DNA of 11,018 nucleotides, taken from the NCBI GenBank assembly GCA_946885545.1, contig CAMPGP010000046.1, positions 1-11,018 of the forward strand, written 5' to 3'. The translations under genes were made by a program, and so were the position numbers. Position 1 is the first letter of the stretch. Each line of letters opens with the position of its first letter. Shown here piece after piece: positions 3,472 to 11,018 of this stretch. Source of the stretch: an uncultured Altererythrobacter sp. (GTDB lineage: Bacteria > Pseudomonadota > Alphaproteobacteria > Sphingomonadales > Sphingomonadaceae). The notes under the pieces are model-generated. The model saw only the letters and a program-made list of their open reading frames with translations. It did not search any database and was not told where the DNA came from.

Positions 3472-3741
3472 ATGCAGTGGACTTCGATCGTGGCGATCTA
3501 CCTGCTCGTATGGGTGCTCAGCGCCTTCGTCATGCTGCCGTTCGGCGTTCGCACGCATGACGAAATGGGAATTGAGAAAGTGCCGGGCCAGGCCGATAGC
3601 GCACCGGGTAACTTCCGCCCCGGCCGGGTGATCCTGCGCGCGACGATCCTGGCGGCCGTGGTGACCGCTCTGTTCGTGCTCAACTTCCATCAAGGATGGA
3701 TCGGGGTCGAAGACCTCGACGTGACGCGGCTAGCGTCTTAG
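3472..3741 (+). CDS. DUF1467 family small membrane protein
   Basis: An 89-residue inner-membrane protein of unknown function. Two hydrophobic helices (about 6-23 and 56-72) flank a polar loop containing GVRTHDEMG and VPGQADSAPGNFRPGR. The VPG...SAP.NF pattern and the position directly after rnj match the DUF1467 family as I recall it from alphaproteobacterial genomes. The ATG lies 4 bases after the rnj stop, with a G-rich run (about 3458-3462) upstream that could serve as a ribosome site, so translation with rnj is likely. The last 12 bases overlap the convergent gene on the other strand. The C-terminus (after about residue 72) is somewhat longer than I expect for the family. Function cannot be read from the sequence. 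Confidence 0.85.
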   Translation: MQWTSIVAIYLLVWVLSAFVMLPFGVRTHDEMGIEKVPGQADSAPGNFRPGRVILRATILAAVVTALFVLNFHQGWIGVEDLDVTRLAS

Positions 3742-3745
3742 CCGC
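3726..3745. terminator. Perfect hairpin between convergent genes, possible bidirectional terminator
   Basis: GCGGCTA (3726-3732), a 6-base loop GCGTCT, then TAGCCGC (3739-3745): a perfect 7-bp stem that folds identically on both strands. The stop codon of the DUF1467 gene (TAG, 3739-3741) is in the right arm, and the stop of the convergent gene (TAG on the - strand, 3730-3732) is in the left arm. No T-run follows on either strand, so it is not a classic intrinsic terminator. It may act as a weak terminator or protect 3' ends, or be a by-product of the overlap. Confidence 0.4.
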
Positions 3746-6348
3746 TGGATCGCCTGCGCGAGCGCAACGTAGAGCTTGCCCATGTCCGAACTGAGCAGGG
3801 TGACGCCGAGCGCGTTGCCATCCCGGGTCGACAGCATCGTGCGAAGCATGCCTTCGAAATCGGCCACATAGCGGTTCACGTTTTCCTGGAAGTCCGGTTC
3901 GCTGTCGTAGAGCTCCGCGATGTCCCGCGCTTCGGTATTGTCGAGCAGACGCACGGCGCGACGCGTGAAGATCCCGCGGTCGCCGCGCAGGTACGAAGCC
4001 CACGCGGTGTCCGTCACGTCGGTCGACAAGGCCTTGGCGATATCGATCGAATTCGAATTCAGGCTTTCGGTGATCAGCGCGATGCGCCGCGCGAAGTCGT
4101 TGTCCACGTGCTCCTCGGCACGTTCGCGCGCGCGCGCCACCCGATTTTCGAGGTTGCCCGCCAGTTCGTCGACCTTGGTGAGCTGGTCGCGGAGCTGGAT
4201 CGCGGCCTGGCGGCTCGCATCCGATGCCTTCGACGCAGCGCGTTCGAGCTGGCCAATCGACTGTTCGGCCTTCTCGCGCATGACTTCGTCCAGGGCCTGC
4301 GAGGTCTCCGCGCCGACGCGCTCGGCGAGTTCTCGGATCGCGTCGCTCGCATCCTCACCGATCGCGGCGCGGGCCGAGCGGGCGGCGAGCTCGAGTGCCT
4401 CGATCGCATCGCCGAGGTCGGCGCGCGCTTTCTCCGCCAGCGCGGAGCTGTCGTCGTCGAGCGCGACCACGGCGGCGCGCAGCTCTGCGATGCGCGCGGC
4501 ATGCTCGTCGTTGGACTGGGCGAAGCGCGAATGCAGGCTCTCGACCTCGGCAATCGTCTCGCGGCCGGTATCGCGCGCCGAGACGACGTAGTCCGACAGA
4601 CGTGCGCTCGCCGCATTGGCATCGTCGAGCGTGATCTTGAGCGCGCCGGCGCGTTCCTCGACATTGGCCAGGCGCCCTTCGGCTTCGCCGATCGCCAGCG
4701 GCAGGTCCTCGCGCGATTGCTGCGCGCTCGCCTGGATCAGCTCGAGCAGGCGGATGCTGGCTTCGGTAAGGGCGGAGACGGCCTCGTCCGTGCCCCCCAG
4801 CGCCGCACGGCTATCAGCCAGCTTGCTCTCGAGACGTTCGAGCCCTTCCGACAGTACTCGTTCCGTCTCGCTGCCTCTGTCGCCGACGTGTTCGATGTCG
4901 GCTCGTAGCTGGAGCACTCGCTCGGTCACGGCTTCGCCCTTGCGGAGCAGTTCGTCGGTCTGGGCGATATGGGCCTCGCGCCGCTCGGCGATCGCCGCAT
5001 CGAGTTCGGCCAGACGGTTCGCAAGGGCGTCCGTCGATTCGCGCTCGGCTTGGGCCAGCAACGTCTGCCGCTCGCTGATGCGGGCCTGCAGGCGCTGGTC
5101 GCGCTCTGCGATGCCGCGATCGACCGTCTCCGCCTCGATCTTGAGTGCCTCGAGTTTGCGGTTGGCGGACGCGAGCGCGCTGTCGTCGATCCCGGTGATG
5201 ACTTCGATCGCTTCGGTCAGCCGCTGCTTCATGGCCTCGATCTGCTCGTTCCACAGCCCGATAGCGGCCTCTTCCCGCTCGCGTACCGATTTGCCGACGG
5301 TCTTGGCTTCGTCGCGCAAGCCGCCGAGGCGGGCGCGGAGTGAGACCAGCGCCTCTTCCTCCTCGGCTTCGAGGGCATGGTGGCTCTCGCGCAACTCCTC
5401 GGCGAGCGAATCGGCCCGGCGACGCAACGCGGCCAGCGATTCCACTTCGCGCCCGTCCAGTTCGACCCGGAACGCCTCGCTCCGCTCGCGCAGCGCGGCG
5501 AAGCGATCCGTCGCGACTGCATGGAGATGCCCAACCTGCTCGTCGAAGGCGGCGAGCGCGGTGTCGATACGTTCGCGCAAGCTGTCGACCTGGCGGGCGC
5601 TCGCCTGCCCGAATTCGTTCAGACGCTCGAAGCCAGACACCAGCTCCGCGACCTGATCGCTCGCGATACGCCCCGCATTGCCGATCTGGCTGGAAACGTC
5701 CCGCGCGGAATTGGCGATGACCGGGAGATCGTCGCGCAGGCGATTCATATTGTCGAGCGCGGTCGAACTCACGGTCGCGAGCGCCTGTACCTGCTCGCCG
5801 TTGTCGTGAACGAGACCCTGTAGGCGGTCCGCATGGGTGGAGAGGCGCTCGGTCGCGACGCGGCCGAGCGAATCGAGCTCGCGCGACTGCGACGAGAGGA
5901 ATTCGCGCGCCAGACTCAATTCCCGATTGATCGTCGAAAGGCGATCTTCAAGGATGCGCGTCTCATGCGACAGCAGGCTCGCGACTTCGCCGAAGCGGCG
6001 CGCCTCGTGCCGGCTGTTGCGCGTCGCGAGTAGCCAGACGAGCGCGACGAGCAGGACGGGGACCGCCCATTGCCCGGTCCACGCGATCCAGCGTTCGGCC
6101 GGGGCACCGGCCAGCATCGGTTCGCGGAAGGTCCAGACGAACGCGCCCGTCCATCCGGCGATAGCGAGCAGGGCGAGCGACGGTGCGAGCCAGTGCCGGC
6201 GCAGGCCTGCCTCGGGCTCGTCCTCCCAGTACTCCTCGTAAACCGTCTCTTCGATCGCGTCGGTCTCGATCGGCTGCGCCTCGCCGGCGACCGTCGGGTC
6301 CGCCTGCTGCTCGGGGCCGATGGCCCGGATGTTGGATCCCCCTGACAT
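3730..6348 (-). CDS. Large membrane-anchored coiled-coil protein, function unknown
   Basis: An 872-residue protein I cannot assign to a characterised family. Residues 1-50 are acidic (YEEYWEDEPE at 38-47) and probably cytoplasmic. Two hydrophobic helices follow at about 53-73 and 90-109. From about 112 to 750 the sequence is almost unbroken amphipathic helix rich in E, R, A, L and S, very likely a long coiled coil resembling methyl-accepting or cytoskeletal rods. A distinct C-terminal domain (about 749-872) holds WASYLRGDRGIFTRRAVRLL and FEGMLRTMLSTRDGNALGVT and ends RLRR. I recall similar sphingomonad proteins being labelled 'ATPase', but I see no Walker A, Walker B or GHKL motif. The ATG at 6348 is the first in frame; only a weak ribosome site precedes it. 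The gene is divergent from the Hpt-like gene (71 bases apart) and convergent with DUF1467. A role in envelope organisation or polarity is only a guess. Confidence 0.85.
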   Translation of the reverse strand: MSGGSNIRAIGPEQQADPTVAGEAQPIETDAIEETVYEEYWEDEPEAGLRRHWLAPSLALLAIAGWTGAFVWTFREPMLAGAPAERWIAWTGQWAVPVLLVALVWLLATRNSRHEARRFGEVASLLSHETRILEDRLSTINRELSLAREFLSSQSRELDSLGRVATERLSTHADRLQGLVHDNGEQVQALATVSSTALDNMNRLRDDLPVIANSARDVSSQIGNAGRIASDQVAELVSGFERLNEFGQASARQVDSLRERIDTALAAFDEQVGHLHAVATDRFAALRERSEAFRVELDGREVESLAALRRRADSLAEELRESHHALEAEEEEALVSLRARLGGLRDEAKTVGKSVREREEAAIGLWNEQIEAMKQRLTEAIEVITGIDDSALASANRKLEALKIEAETVDRGIAERDQRLQARISERQTLLAQAERESTDALANRLAELDAAIAERREAHIAQTDELLRKGEAVTERVLQLRADIEHVGDRGSETERVLSEGLERLESKLADSRAALGGTDEAVSALTEASIRLLELIQASAQQSREDLPLAIGEAEGRLANVEERAGALKITLDDANAASARLSDYVVSARDTGRETIAEVESLHSRFAQSNDEHAARIAELRAAVVALDDDSSALAEKARADLGDAIEALELAARSARAAIGEDASDAIRELAERVGAETSQALDEVMREKAEQSIGQLERAASKASDASRQAAIQLRDQLTKVDELAGNLENRVARARERAEEHVDNDFARRIALITESLNSNSIDIAKALSTDVTDTAWASYLRGDRGIFTRRAVRLLDNTEARDIAELYDSEPDFQENVNRYVADFEGMLRTMLSTRDGNALGVTLLSSDMGKLYVALAQAIQRLRR

Positions 6349-6419
6349 GACGAGAAATCTACCACGAAAGCGGCCATGTGAAACCCCGCTTTAACCATTC
6401 CTGCGATAGGCCGAGCCGT

Positions 6420-6728
6420 ATGGTCCACGAAACCGGCGCCCTCGATGCCACGCTGGCCGCAGCGGCTGGAGACGATCCCGCGTTGCTCGCGGAACTGCGT
6501 GCTGCCTTCGTCGAAAGTCTCGACCGCCAGATCGACTTGCTCCGGAGAGCGCGATGCGACGGCAACTGGGACGTCGCAGCCCTCAGGCTGAAAGGCCTCG
6601 CAGCGAGCTTCCACGCGGCGGAACTCCAGGCGCTGGCCGAAGAAGCAGTGGCGTCCGCGCCCGGTGATCCGGCTATCCTGCGCAAGCTCCAGGCGTTTCG
6701 GCAAGCCTTCTTCTCCGCGCGCGACTGA
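6420..6728 (+). CDS. Hpt-like four-helix protein lacking the phospho-histidine
   Basis: A 102-residue all-helical protein resembling histidine phosphotransfer (Hpt) domains along most of its length: AGDDPALLAELRAAFVESLD (18-37 region, helix 1-2) and then ALRLKGLAASFHAAELQALAEE (54-75 region). Hpt domains carry a phospho-accepting His in the motif HxLKG; here the motif reads L55-R56-L57-K58-G59, so the His is Leu. The only nearby His, H65, falls where Hpt domains normally have Gly. It therefore cannot relay phosphate in the usual way and may bind a response regulator or kinase without transfer. ATG 6420 is preferred because AGG (6408-6410) lies 9 bases upstream and homology starts directly. 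A GTG at 6378 would add 14 unrelated residues. Spacing to the next gene is 83 bases and contains a promoter. Confidence 0.8.
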   Translation: MVHETGALDATLAAAAGDDPALLAELRAAFVESLDRQIDLLRRARCDGNWDVAALRLKGLAASFHAAELQALAEEAVASAPGDPAILRKLQAFRQAFFSARD

Positions 6729-6811: not shown

Positions 6812-8014
6812 TTGCGGGTCGCGATCCTATCGGCGATGCACGCCAGCGGTGAAGATCAGGCTGCTACGCCACGCGGCTTGCTGACGGTCGCGGGGCGTAG
6901 CGTCATCGCGCTCCAGCTCGAGATCGCGCTGCGGCTCGGTTGCGAACGGATCGTTTGTCTGTCCGAAGGCCTGAACGAACAGGTCCTGCCGCTGTTGCAC
7001 CGGGCGGAGCAGGGTGGGGCGAGCTTTCACGCGCTTTCGGGAGCGCGGGCGCTTTCCGGACTCGTCAAGGCGCAAGACGAGCTGTTTGTCTTCGCCGAAG
7101 GCGTCGTACCCGATCCGCGCTTCGTGGGCGAGCTTCTCGGCGAGCGATCGGGGATCATCGCGCTTCCCGCCGAGCCCGGCGTCGAGGAGGGCTACGAGCG
7201 GATCGACCGCGACCATGCCTGGGCCGGGGTGGCACGACTGCCGGGTTCGGCGGTCGAACGTCTCGCGGAAATGCCGTTCGACGTCGACGCGGTTCCTGCG
7301 TTGCTCAGGGTCGGGCTGCAATCCGGAATCCGCCTCGCTCCGCTACCCAAGGCGGCACTTAACGAACGCCGCTGGACCTTCCTGCGTGACGAGCATCAGG
7401 CACGTTCTTTCGAGGCCGCATGGCTGCAGCAGCGTGTTTCTCCCGCTTCGTTCGCGGCGCCGTCGCATGCGGTTGCCGATCGCGCGGCGATCTCACTCGC
7501 CCCCAGGCTGCTTGCGCGGCGCGGCGGCGCTGCGTTGCCGTTCGTCATGGGCCTTGCCGCGCTCGGAGGCGCGGTCGCCGCCGCTTCGGGGCAGATGCCG
7601 GTCACCGCCTTCGCCGCGACGGGGATCGGTGCCTTTCTGCTTCGCATGGGAGGAACCCTCGTAAGCCTCGCGCGCGACGATCGCGAGGAACGATGGCTGG
7701 CCCGGACGCTGCGCTGGGGGCCGGGCGCGCTGGTAGACGCAACAATCCTTGCCGCAGCCGCGCTGGTTGCGCCACCCGCGGCAATCAGCGGGTGGCTCTT
7801 CGCCACCTCGTGCCTGCTGCTTGCGCTGCGACTAGCGGGACGCTGGGCAACGGGTGGTCTGGCCCGCACCGCAGGCGACCGCGCCTTGCTCGCCGGCGTG
7901 CTGGTGACGGGCGCGGCGACCGGCCAACTTTTGCCCATATTGCAGGGACTTGCCCTCGCAACGCTGGCAATTCTTTATTTCGCATCGGTTCGTCCAGGGA
8001 TAACGCGCGTTTAA
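6812..8014 (+). CDS. Nucleotidyltransferase-like domain fused to a membrane domain, probable pseudo-enzyme
   Basis: A 400-residue protein in two parts. Residues 1-190 resemble a GT-A-fold sugar/alcohol nucleotidyltransferase: MRVAILSA, then PRGLLTVAGRSVIALQLEIA (20-39) and LGCERIVCL (42-50), with DELFVFAEGVVPD (89-101) where such enzymes carry their metal-binding acid. The glycine-rich GxGxR loop is missing (residues 9-19 read MHASGEDQAAT), and the usual PK lysine is R21. Residues about 242-392 contain some six hydrophobic helices. The layout recalls the fusions of a cytidylyltransferase with a CDP-alcohol phosphatidyltransferase, but the D..DG..AR signature is absent; only a G305/D309 pair can be placed and the next acid is L313. 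I infer a catalytically inactive or altered relative. The TTG start is set by a strong ribosome site; the promoter lies just upstream. The stop is 23 bases before the next gene. Confidence 0.75.
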   Translation: MRVAILSAMHASGEDQAATPRGLLTVAGRSVIALQLEIALRLGCERIVCLSEGLNEQVLPLLHRAEQGGASFHALSGARALSGLVKAQDELFVFAEGVVPDPRFVGELLGERSGIIALPAEPGVEEGYERIDRDHAWAGVARLPGSAVERLAEMPFDVDAVPALLRVGLQSGIRLAPLPKAALNERRWTFLRDEHQARSFEAAWLQQRVSPASFAAPSHAVADRAAISLAPRLLARRGGAALPFVMGLAALGGAVAAASGQMPVTAFAATGIGAFLLRMGGTLVSLARDDREERWLARTLRWGPGALVDATILAAAALVAPPAAISGWLFATSCLLLALRLAGRWATGGLARTAGDRALLAGVLVTGAATGQLLPILQGLALATLAILYFASVRPGITRV

Positions 8015-8037: not shown

Positions 8038-9000
8038 ATGACCGACTCCGTCATGACACAGGTTTCGCACTCGCCGATCGAGTCCGTCCTCGCGGGCGAG
8101 CTCGCACGGGGCGATGTCGTGCTCGGCGCGATCGGGCCGATGCTCGGCATGCTGCTGGCCAATCACGACAACGCGCTGTTCAGCGACGAAGTGGTCGCAC
8201 GCGTTCGCGCGATGGTGCGCCATGTCGCGCAACAGGCGCTCGTCGCACAGGCCCACGCGGCGGGAATCGAGGAGCCGTTCGGCTTTGCCGACGATCGCTG
8301 CGGTCCGCTGGCGGAAGCGCTGGCGGAGGATCTCGCCTTCGTCGGCCACTGCCACGCGCTCGCGCTGGAGTATCGCCTTGCGATGCAGATCGAGCGGCGC
8401 AACGGCATAGACCCGGTGGTGTCTCCGCTCCTGCAGTCTCTGATCGCCTCGTCGGACAGTAGGACCGCGCGCCTGGCGATGGCGCTGCTCGCGGCGCAGG
8501 CGCGCTTCGTCCAGCAGCAGCGGCGCATGGAACTGCCGCTCGGCGAACTGCCGCGGGCGTTGTTCGAACGTGTCCTGACGGCGTGGCGCGGACTAGCGGC
8601 GGACAGTAGCCCGAACGCCATCGAACAGGCCGACAAACGCCTGCGCGACACCTACGACGAACAGTCCGGCCGGTTGTCGCTCCTCGTGCGCGCGACGGGC
8701 GCGGTGGGCGATGCGATGAAGCCGGCGCTGTCGGTAGGACACGCTGGCGTGGCGCTGTTCCTGACCGCGCTCTCGCTCGCCACCGGAATGGAGCGCGGCC
8801 TCGCCGCGGTGTCGACCAACGAAAGCCAGCTCGGCCGTCTCGCGCTGTCGCTTCGCTCCGCCGGGCTCGCGGCTGACGGAATCGCCGAACAATTCGTCCT
8901 CATCCATCCCGAAGTGACGCTTCCCGTCGCGCTGGACGCATTGCGCGGCGACCGCGCGCGGTCGATCCTCGCCGATTCCGGCCGGCAGGCGCTGGACTAG
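8038..9000 (+). CDS. Helical protein of unknown function (possibly DUF2336-like)
   Basis: A 320-residue, Ala/Leu/Arg-rich protein without signal peptide or convincing membrane helix, predicted all-helical and cytosolic. Recognisable blocks are a helical N-half with FADDRCGPLAEALAEDLAFV (83-102), a polar block QQQRRMELPLGELP (159-172) and a C-half with HAGVALFLTALSLATG (235-250), ESQLGRLALSLRSAGLA (262-278) and IHPEVTLP (289-296). The C-half resembles the helical-repeat C-terminus of DUF2336 proteins of Alphaproteobacteria, but this is a recollection by eye and may be wrong. The ATG at 8038 has AAGG (8027-8030) 7 bases upstream; an internal ATG at 8053 is a weaker alternative. It lies 3 bases before the kinase-like gene and is almost certainly co-translated, so a role as its partner or input is a reasonable inference. 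Confidence 0.8.
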   Translation: MTDSVMTQVSHSPIESVLAGELARGDVVLGAIGPMLGMLLANHDNALFSDEVVARVRAMVRHVAQQALVAQAHAAGIEEPFGFADDRCGPLAEALAEDLAFVGHCHALALEYRLAMQIERRNGIDPVVSPLLQSLIASSDSRTARLAMALLAAQARFVQQQRRMELPLGELPRALFERVLTAWRGLAADSSPNAIEQADKRLRDTYDEQSGRLSLLVRATGAVGDAMKPALSVGHAGVALFLTALSLATGMERGLAAVSTNESQLGRLALSLRSAGLAADGIAEQFVLIHPEVTLPVALDALRGDRARSILADSGRQALD

Positions 9001-9003
9001 TCC

Positions 9004-10392
9004 ATGGGTGCCATACCACGCACATTTCTCGCCCGCGGGCGGACCGATGCCGAGGATCGGCTGGTCGAAGCCGACGAGCTGATTGCGGCGCTCCAGCGCG
9101 ATTGCGGTGGCGAGATGCCCGGGACGCTCGCCATTCCCGCGCTGCTCGATCAGGTTCGCAGGGCGCGGACCGTCGGCACCCGGATGTCCGGCTCGATCGA
9201 GGCACTGCGCGGCGAGCAAGTCGTGCGCGCCTGGGTGGAGGTATGCCCCGATACAGGCGATGCGGGCGGGTGCGCGATCGGGGTATCCGACTGGCAGGCT
9301 TCGCCCCACGCCGTGGACGACGATGCAAGCGCAGCGGCCCGGCGGCTCGAGATCGAACGTACCGTGGCCGAACTGTCCGCGCGCCTCGATCCGGCGCAGA
9401 ACGTGCTTTCGGTGGATGCGCGCGCACCCGACCTCGCCAGTCTCGCCTCCAGAATGGCGCAAGGCGCAGGAAGTCCGTGGACCGACTTCGTCCGGCTGCC
9501 CGGTGCGCTGCACGAGCAGCCGATGCACTGGCGCCTGCTCGACGGCGCGACGGTGCAGGTCGACGGGTCCGATCGCCGGTGGACCGCGACTCTGGTACCG
9601 CTGGGCTCGCCCGAGCCGGGGCAGGCCGGATACGAACTCTACCTCTCGGCAGAAGAACCGCTCGCACCCGCTTACGAGGTCCCCGTTCCGAAGCGGCCGA
9701 AATCGCGCGCCGCGCACTCGATCGGGCAGGACCTCTCGCCCGTGCTGCGCCAGCCCATCGCCCGGATCATTGCCAATGCCGAGACCATACGCGCCCGCCT
9801 AGCAGGGCCGCTGGCGGAGGAATACAGCAACTACGCCGCAGACATCGCCGCGGCGGGCCAGCATCTCCTCGCGCTGATCGAGGACCTGTCCGACCTCGAA
9901 GTGGTCGAGGCCGAGAATTTCAGCACCGCCCCCGACGAAATCGATCTGGGCGACGTCGCCCGTCGCGCAGCCGGCATTCTTGCCGTCCGTGCGCGGGAGC
10001 GGGAGATCGCGTTGGTCGGTCCATCCGACAGCGAGAAGCTGCCCGCGGTGGCCGAATTCCGGCGCGTGCTGCAGATCCTGCTGAACCTCGTGGGCAATGC
10101 GATCCGCTATTCGCCCGAAGGATCGACCGTTCGCCTGGAACTGTCGTCAGGGGAGGGCGCAGCGAGGGTGACGGTGATCGATCAGGGCCCGGGCCTGAGC
10201 GCGCAGGACCAGGCGCGCGTGTTCGAGAAGTTCGAGCGTCTCGGTCGCAGCGGCGACGGCGGCTCGGGTCTCGGCCTGTACATTTCGCGACGGCTCGCCC
10301 GTGCGATGGGGGGAGAGCTGTCTGTGGCCAGCGAGCCGGGGAAGGGCGCGTGCTTCACGCTCGTGGTCCCGCAGGTCGGGAAGCAGCCTTAG
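9004..10392 (+). CDS. Soluble histidine-kinase-like protein without the H-box histidine
   Basis: A 462-residue cytosolic protein (no membrane helix). Residues 1-230 are a sensor-like region, with 155-220 possibly PAS-like. A dimerisation helix pair spans about 238-300, and a HATPase_c domain about 310-457. The ATP core looks intact: N-box NLVGNA (361-366), G1 DQGPGL (393-398), F-box VFEKFERLG (406-414) and G2 GGSGLGLYISRRLARAMGG (419-437). The H-box, normally SHELRTP, reads S245-P246-V247-L248-R249-Q250-P251, so the phospho-accepting His is Pro (codon 9739-9741) and the adjacent acid is Val. Autophosphorylation at the usual site is impossible. H238 and H287 are the nearest histidines, neither in register. 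ATG 9004 is 3 bases after the previous stop. No response regulator gene is adjacent. The stop overlaps the convergent small gene by 4 bases. Confidence 0.9.
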   Translation: MGAIPRTFLARGRTDAEDRLVEADELIAALQRDCGGEMPGTLAIPALLDQVRRARTVGTRMSGSIEALRGEQVVRAWVEVCPDTGDAGGCAIGVSDWQASPHAVDDDASAAARRLEIERTVAELSARLDPAQNVLSVDARAPDLASLASRMAQGAGSPWTDFVRLPGALHEQPMHWRLLDGATVQVDGSDRRWTATLVPLGSPEPGQAGYELYLSAEEPLAPAYEVPVPKRPKSRAAHSIGQDLSPVLRQPIARIIANAETIRARLAGPLAEEYSNYAADIAAAGQHLLALIEDLSDLEVVEAENFSTAPDEIDLGDVARRAAGILAVRAREREIALVGPSDSEKLPAVAEFRRVLQILLNLVGNAIRYSPEGSTVRLELSSGEGAARVTVIDQGPGLSAQDQARVFEKFERLGRSGDGGSGLGLYISRRLARAMGGELSVASEPGKGACFTLVVPQVGKQP

Positions 10393-10596: not shown

Positions 10597-11018
10597 TCAG
10601 CGCTTGCCCATCGGCACGTAGTCGCGCTCGGTCGGGCCGGTGTAGAGCTGGCGCGGACGACCGATGACCTGGCCGGGATCGGAGATCATCTCGTTCCACT
10701 GCGCGACCCAGCCCACGGTGCGGGCCAGCGCGAAGAGCGCGGTGAACATCGTGGTCGGGAAGCCGATCGCCGAAAGGATGATGCCCGAATAGAAGTCGAC
10801 GTTGGGGAAGAGCTTCTTTTCCTTGAAGTAATCGTCGGAAAGCGCGAGCTCCTCGAGCCGCAGCGCAGTCTCGAAAACCGGATCCTTGACCTGGAGTGCG
10901 TCGAACACTTCGCGCACGGTCTTCTGCATCACGGCCGCGCGCGGGTCGTAGTTCTTGTACACGCGGTGGCCGAAGCCCATCAGGCGGAACGGGTCGTTCT
11001 TGTCCTTGGCGCGCTCGA
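10597..11018 (-). CDS. gltA: Citrate synthase, C-terminal part (5' end outside window)
   Basis: The last 140 or so residues of a type II (bacterial GltA) citrate synthase, which condenses oxaloacetate and acetyl-CoA to citrate in the TCA cycle. The frame is open to the right edge of the window. It contains the active-site histidine motif [14 protein letters not shown] and the catalytic aspartate in [10 protein letters not shown], followed by [13 protein letters not shown] and the C-terminal RPRQLYTGP block, all close to the E. coli enzyme. The ATG at 10980 is an internal Met, since homologous sequence (DKNDPFRL) continues upstream of it. The stop TGA (10597-10599) is 4 bases from the next gene on the same strand, which probably shares its transcript. 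No promoter is visible because the 5' end lies outside. Confidence 0.97.

Follow-up and report, generated by a model that had tools for sequence, protein, structure and literature searches.

The window analysed here (the whole stretch of 11,018 nucleotides, contig CAMPGP010000046.1 of an uncultured Altererythrobacter sp.) contains a gene whose product is laid out as a sensor histidine kinase, with proline in place of the phospho-accepting histidine. A sequence-only reading had noted that the H-box is S-P-V-L-R-Q-P instead of S-H-E-L-R-T-P and that the N, G1, F and G2 boxes are intact, and both observations hold (positions 9733-9756 read L-S-P-V-L-R-Q-P). The features of the gene are as follows.

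9004..10392, forward strand: pseudo-histidine kinase gene (462 amino acids), with an N-terminal sensor region, a DHp (HisKA) domain without the acceptor His and an intact HATPase_c domain
9031..9657, forward strand: N-terminal sensor region, residues 10-218, probably two PAS-like domains
9721..9909, forward strand: DHp helices, residues 240-302
9733..9756, forward strand: H-box remnant L-S-P-V-L-R-Q-P, residues 244-251
9739..9741, forward strand: Pro246 (codon CCC) at the phospho-acceptor position
9931..10374, forward strand: catalytic and ATP-binding (CA) domain, residues 310-457
10084..10110, forward strand: N box N-L-V-G-N-A-I-R-Y, residues 361-369
10180..10194, forward strand: G1 box D-Q-G-P-G, residues 393-397
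10261..10281, forward strand: G2 box G-S-G-L-G-L-Y, residues 420-426

PF00512 (HisKA) was matched with 30.5 bits and PF02518 (HATPase_c) with 97.4 bits, both above the cut-off. The protein therefore has the domains and the N, G1, F and G2 boxes of a HisKA kinase, and lacks both the acceptor His and the acid at the following position (H+1). ATP binding is predicted from the intact boxes. The same Pfam scan gave no PAS match for this protein; that its sensor region consists of two PAS-like domains is probable from the strand and helix pattern read by the model and from weak PAS matches in distant homologues.

A protein search returned 5451 matches among 7997 scored candidates. In an alignment of the best 120 listed, 119 rows have Pro in the acceptor column and one has Thr; Val follows at H+1 in 119 rows and Ile in the other, and N361, N365, D393, G395, G397, G420, G422 and G424 are all invariant. 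A scan of named genomes gave 550 relatives. Of these the best 80 loci were kept, each with a sphingomonad label or that of an unspecified alphaproteobacterial or proteobacterial metagenome-assembled genome; with the window they form an 81-row top tier beside gltA, the citrate synthase gene. Here the acceptor column is Pro in 80 rows and Ser in one, the key residues of the N, G1 and G2 boxes are invariant (81/81), and F410 is kept in 80/81. Thirty further top-scoring loci all have Pro (30/30). The alignment that the sequence-only reading had proposed, with H-box and ATP-box columns scored, thus agrees with its claim that the canonical autophosphorylation site is lost while the ATP boxes are conserved.

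Among 296 genomes of the order, 269 have a match at E<=1e-35, and 38 loci chosen across the weaker score tiers serve as the lower tier. Their acceptor column is mixed (R 8, P 7, G 6, K 3, E 3, S 2, Q 2, T 2, H 2, A 2, D 1), and 11 added lower-tier loci, each with gltA in the fetched stretch, have D 5, E 3, V 1, H 1 and N 1. A later family sample of 29 rows, in which some genomes are repeated, gave P 17, A 3 and nine other residues once each; its lone His comes from the genome of L170 again (see below). A conserved Ser, Thr or Asp as substitute acceptor was rejected on the spread of residues in the lower tier. H287 was rejected as a relocated DHp acceptor: it is conserved, yet the same His (H-L-L) is found in most His-bearing relatives.

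The H+1 position is uniform in one respect. Its acid is missing from all family rows counted (81/81, 120/120, 38/38 and 11/11) and present in 44/44 His-bearing control rows; an acid at H+1 is needed for autokinase activity in HisKA proteins. Lower-tier loci L169 and L170 (genomes of ~2.1 Mb) and L275 have a His without a following acid, reading DHSFKPP, DHSFKPS and DHALRSP, respectively; the acid is found in 0/49 lower-tier rows, these three included. All three are placed within the pseudo clade in trees of 45 and 47 rows, and we infer that their His reflects a variable column passing back through His.

A 35-row profile run against the 296 order genomes matched 200 at E<=1e-62 and 186 at E<=1e-75; membership of the 186 is by score, with H-boxes read in part. 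For the 14 weaker than 1e-75, the H-box of the best match is pseudo-type in eight and His-bearing in six (for G042, G046 and G064 it was read from the best match of an earlier search). Occurrence outside the order was rejected. In a class search of 337 genomes, with at most eight candidates scored per genome, five genomes reached family-level scores (277-335 bits), and all five are also in the order sample. The next best score was 202 bits, and the next 25 class loci, fetched at or below that score with many further matches unfetched, are His-bearing (His at the column and Glu at H+1 in 25/25, Thr at H+4 in 24/25). No relative of the family was found in the viral contigs searched.

The suggestion that this is a stable sphingomonad family, not a decayed copy, is therefore upheld by the conserved Pro column, by the 200 of 296 genomes and by ratios of nonsynonymous to synonymous substitution (dN/dS) of 0.05-0.14 (Nei-Gojobori, 14 closest pairs printed). 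The opposite explanation, a decaying gene, starts from the loss of a catalytic residue, and two listed matches have an internal TAA (G136:C13:117280-118644 and G157:C1:532319-533164), possibly from local decay, a frame artefact or a sequencing error. The low dN/dS argues against decay, as do the breadth of the matches (200 genomes, 186 of them at 1e-75 or better) and the invariant key ATP-box residues, and we regard this explanation as very improbable. The sequence-only reading had named close His-bearing homologues together with a decayed copy as what would overturn it. That combination did not turn up: the His-bearing relatives found are deeper sisters and the three scattered lower-tier rows without an H+1 acid.

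A second protein in the same block has also lost its acceptor.

6378..6728, forward strand: Hpt-like protein without acceptor His (pseudo-Hpt)
6582..6584, forward strand: lost Hpt acceptor codon, Leu in A-L-R-L-K-G (A-H-R-L-K-G in sister locus L312)

The product has the fold of the Hpt family (PF01627) without its acceptor His, which is found in 0/71 top-tier rows, 0/11 lower-tier rows and 1/120 rows, and is kept in sister locus L312. Its dN/dS is 0.05-0.22 (same method, 14 closest pairs printed). Note that H79, in S-F-H of this protein, is His in 65/71 top-tier rows and is possibly a new functional residue. As a new Hpt acceptor it was rejected: the 11 lower-tier rows have Gly in eight and otherwise Ser, Met or Asn, with no His. 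A His-less kinase and a His-less Hpt, both kept by selection, suggest a phosphate-relay pair converted to signalling in another way.

The remaining genes of the neighbourhood are listed below.

3730-6348, reverse strand: 872-amino-acid protein, seemingly rich in coiled coil, divergent from the Hpt-like gene
6812..8014, forward strand: ORF400, with a seemingly degenerate nucleotidyltransferase-like N-terminus and a hydrophobic C-terminal half
8038..9000, forward strand: DUF2336-related protein (320 amino acids), 3 bases upstream of the kinase-like gene
10597..11016, reverse strand: gltA (citrate synthase), convergent neighbour and synteny anchor

The block recurs in the best 80 loci, with the DUF2336-related gene in 80/80, gltA in 80/80, ORF400 in 72/80 and the Hpt-like gene in 70/80; some of the missing neighbours are at contig edges. 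In the fetched stretches of the 38 lower-tier loci, gltA was found in 34, ORF400 in 37, the DUF2336-related gene (by profile) in 25 and the Hpt-like gene in 11. PF10098 gave no hits for the 8038-9000 protein and none among 29 top-tier members; it matched the orthologues in the same place at L170 and L129 at 7.6e-30 and 1.1e-13. At a His-bearing sister locus, the ORF400 homologue belongs to the CDP-alcohol phosphatidyltransferases (PF01066). A plain DG..AR pattern is present in 2/110 ORF400 rows (L035 and L057). ORF400 seems to lack recognisable catalytic motifs, and this third protein of the block may be a pseudoenzyme; that reading is tentative, since a stricter CDP-alcohol pattern missed L302 as well, despite the Pfam match there. 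The 872-amino-acid protein has a homologue in 74/80 loci and matched no Pfam family above the cut-off.

The DUF2336 pairing extends to His-bearing relatives. A DUF2336 gene lies within the fetched flanks of 9/25 His-bearing class loci, three DUF2336 neighbours of His-bearing relatives were confirmed by Pfam at E<=1e-65, and 15/19 His-bearing loci read from order genomes show DUF2336. Two deep-branching genomes, G267 and G640, keep an S-H-E-L-R-T-P kinase at the gltA locus, and one of the two also retains the Hpt acceptor His. G267 (L281, L302 and L351) has gltA, a bestrophin-like gene, the S-H-E-L-R-T-P kinase, DUF2336 (1.8e-52), a further gene, an NTP transferase, inositol-1-phosphate synthase, the ORF400-related CDP-alcohol phosphatidyltransferase and an Hpt. 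The inositol-1-phosphate synthase, NTP transferase and phosphatidyltransferase of that genome (L302, 11906-15238) hint that the block was ancestrally connected with the making of inositol lipids or inositol phosphates. In G640 (L346) the order is ORF400, DUF2336, kinase (S-H-E-L-R-T-P) and gltA, and no Hpt-like gene was detected in the fetched stretch. G643 (L347) has gltA, a DUF2336 gene with a full score and a pseudo-type kinase whose acceptor column is Asp.

In trees, a branch with support of 100/100 (45 rows) and 100/94 (47 rows) separates the pseudo rows from the others. L347 comes first inside the pseudo side, and L346 and L281/L302, His-bearing and linked to gltA, are next outside. Because the roots are midpoints chosen for drawing and L347 and L348 have long branches, this order of events should be considered provisional. 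With that reservation we infer, from sequence comparison, that the ancestor of the family was a functional HisKA kinase whose gene already formed a pair with DUF2336 next to gltA.

Of the regions compared, DHp helix 1 is the best conserved in the 81-row top tier, with a mean column entropy of 0.64 bits; helix 2 has 0.86, the ATP domain 1.02 and the sensor region 1.62-1.76. Top-tier entropies at H+8, H+11 and H+15, three positions altered in an HK853 specificity mutant, are 0.10, 0.10 and 0.17 bits. The account we prefer, and hold with somewhat better than even confidence, is by analogy with DivL: the protein would be a docking or sensing pseudo-histidine kinase, derived from a HisKA kinase and accompanied by a His-less Hpt-like protein in its block. 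On one branch within the sphingomonads the acceptor His, the H+1 acid and the H+4 Thr disappeared, while the DHp dimer and docking helices and the ATP pocket were kept; the Hpt-like protein of the same block lost its own acceptor His. In its present role the kinase-like protein would no longer relay phosphate by a His of its own. Signals from the sensor domain and the state of the nucleotide would determine the conformation of the DHp-CA core, and this core would bind a receiver domain or some other partner, in the way that DivL binds DivK~P. The pseudo-Hpt could be a further docking partner that transfers no phosphate, or a decoy. The further proposal, that kinase and Hpt, both His-less in one lineage, are kept together as a phosphate-free signalling module in which docking gated by sensor and ATP, with the pseudo-Hpt as decoy or adaptor, replaces phosphotransfer, is a tentative one that we are inclined to doubt.

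Several results weigh against the docking account. In the 38 lower-tier rows helix 1 has 1.66 bits vs 1.29 for helix 2 and 1.44 for the ATP domain, so helix 1 stands out within the top tier only; H+12 and H+15 also vary in these rows, and a single fixed receiver partner across the family is therefore unsupported. His stands in the acceptor column in 3/49 lower-tier rows (L169, L170 and L275). The Hpt-like gene was detected in 70/80 top-tier loci but in 11/38 lower-tier and 1/2 His-bearing sister loci, and so is not an obligate companion of the kinase-like gene, and the ancestral Hpt His at the gltA locus rests on one genome. Conserved ATP boxes, finally, are also compatible with activity on another substrate.

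This last point leads to a working kinase in trans, in which the ATP domain would phosphorylate the His of a canonical kinase in a heterodimer, or a residue of a partner such as the DUF2336 protein. The invariant key N, G1 and G2 residues (81/81), the near-invariant F410 (80/81), the strong conservation of the DHp helices in the top tier and the presence of canonical HisKA kinases in both genomes read would suit it. We nevertheless consider it rather unlikely, given that the H+1 acid is missing in every family row counted and that the acceptor column shows no substitute nucleophile shared by the tiers. An ATP/ADP-dependent conformational switch, passing sensor input to a partner from outside two-component signalling (the DUF2336 protein or the membrane protein ORF400) without a receiver domain, is also unlikely, if slightly less so. 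The DUF2336-related gene is the tightest association (80/80 top-tier, 25/38 lower-tier by profile, and also beside His-bearing relatives), and no response regulator was recognised among the nine window proteins scanned. Set against the switch are the top-tier conservation of helix 1, the receiver-docking helix, which exceeds that of the other regions compared, and an Hpt-like fold retained in the same block.

Beyond the sequence-only reading, the analysis adds the His-less Hpt-like neighbour, the pairing with a DUF2336 relative and a DivL-type protein in the two genomes checked. To our knowledge, most pseudo-histidine kinases described so far are isolated examples, DivL being the best studied, and we know of no previous bacterial pseudo-Hpt kept by selection. 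Our literature search, with subscription journals mostly outside its scope, gave no description of a bacterial pseudo-Hpt and no paper on DUF2336; among the matches listed, the pseudo-HPt literature concerns plants by title or abstract, and no pseudo-histidine kinase paper is titled for this family. The pairing gives a first lead for DUF2336. Acceptor-bearing relatives at the same chromosomal place offer a natural before-and-after comparison for two-component parts without phosphate transfer. By score, the family is present in about two thirds of the sampled order genomes (186/296, E<=1e-75). Named database records label it a (sensor) histidine kinase, and two-component surveys may therefore wrongly count it as one.

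Two genomes were checked for DivL, G001 (of L008) and G004 (of L039), with 21 and 30 HATPase_c matches. Among the 30 loci fetched from the two, several of them without an H-box readable by pattern, one protein per genome carries Tyr at the H-box.

L257, 1504-3327, reverse strand: Tyr-bearing protein, MSYEFRTP
L266, 1507-3342, reverse strand: Tyr-bearing protein, MSYELRNP

Of the two, L257 was compared with the PDB, and its top match there is DivL (118 bits vs 81 for the next). Among solved structures DivL ranks 4th for the window protein and 10th for its profile. That the window protein is itself the sphingomonad DivL is hardly credible, since both genomes have a separate Tyr-bearing DivL-type protein; judged by sequence, the window family is a second pseudokinase beside it in the two genomes checked.

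According to PMC4211667, DivL of Caulobacter (PDB 4q20) has no kinase or phosphatase activity, binds DivK~P via the canonical docking face and binds an ATP analogue only weakly. The window family shares with it a HisKA-HATPase fold without acceptor His, the helix 1 Arg (R553 in DivL, R249 here, counted from the acceptor position) and probably PAS input. DivL-type rows have Tyr plus an acid (Y-E-F-R-T-P and Y-E-L-R-N-P) vs P-V-L-R-Q-P here, and, unlike DivL, the window family is paired with a DUF2336 relative and often a His-less Hpt-like gene, beside gltA. According to Brilli et al. (PMC2877005), DivJ-PleC-DivK is degenerate or wholly lost in Sphingomonadales, so the receiver of the window protein need not be DivK. 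The nearest relatives are the DUF2336-linked PAS-PAS-HisKA kinases of Alphaproteobacteria (L236 and L239 read by Pfam; L284-L286, L288-L291 and L293-L299 by profile), with the same gene pair and domain order; these keep S-H-E-L-R-T-P, whereas the window family does not. The window Hpt-like protein differs from canonical Hpt proteins (HptB 7c1i and ShpA 2ooc) by the missing acceptor His. Plant pseudo-HPt proteins of the AHP6 type likewise have an Hpt fold without acceptor His and act in the cytokinin relay, while the one here is bacterial and lies in a gene block with a His-less kinase. The Corynebacterium protein of PMC9491836 is, by that title, a pseudokinase version of the histidine kinase ChrS in one organism, whereas the window family is order-wide with its own gene block.
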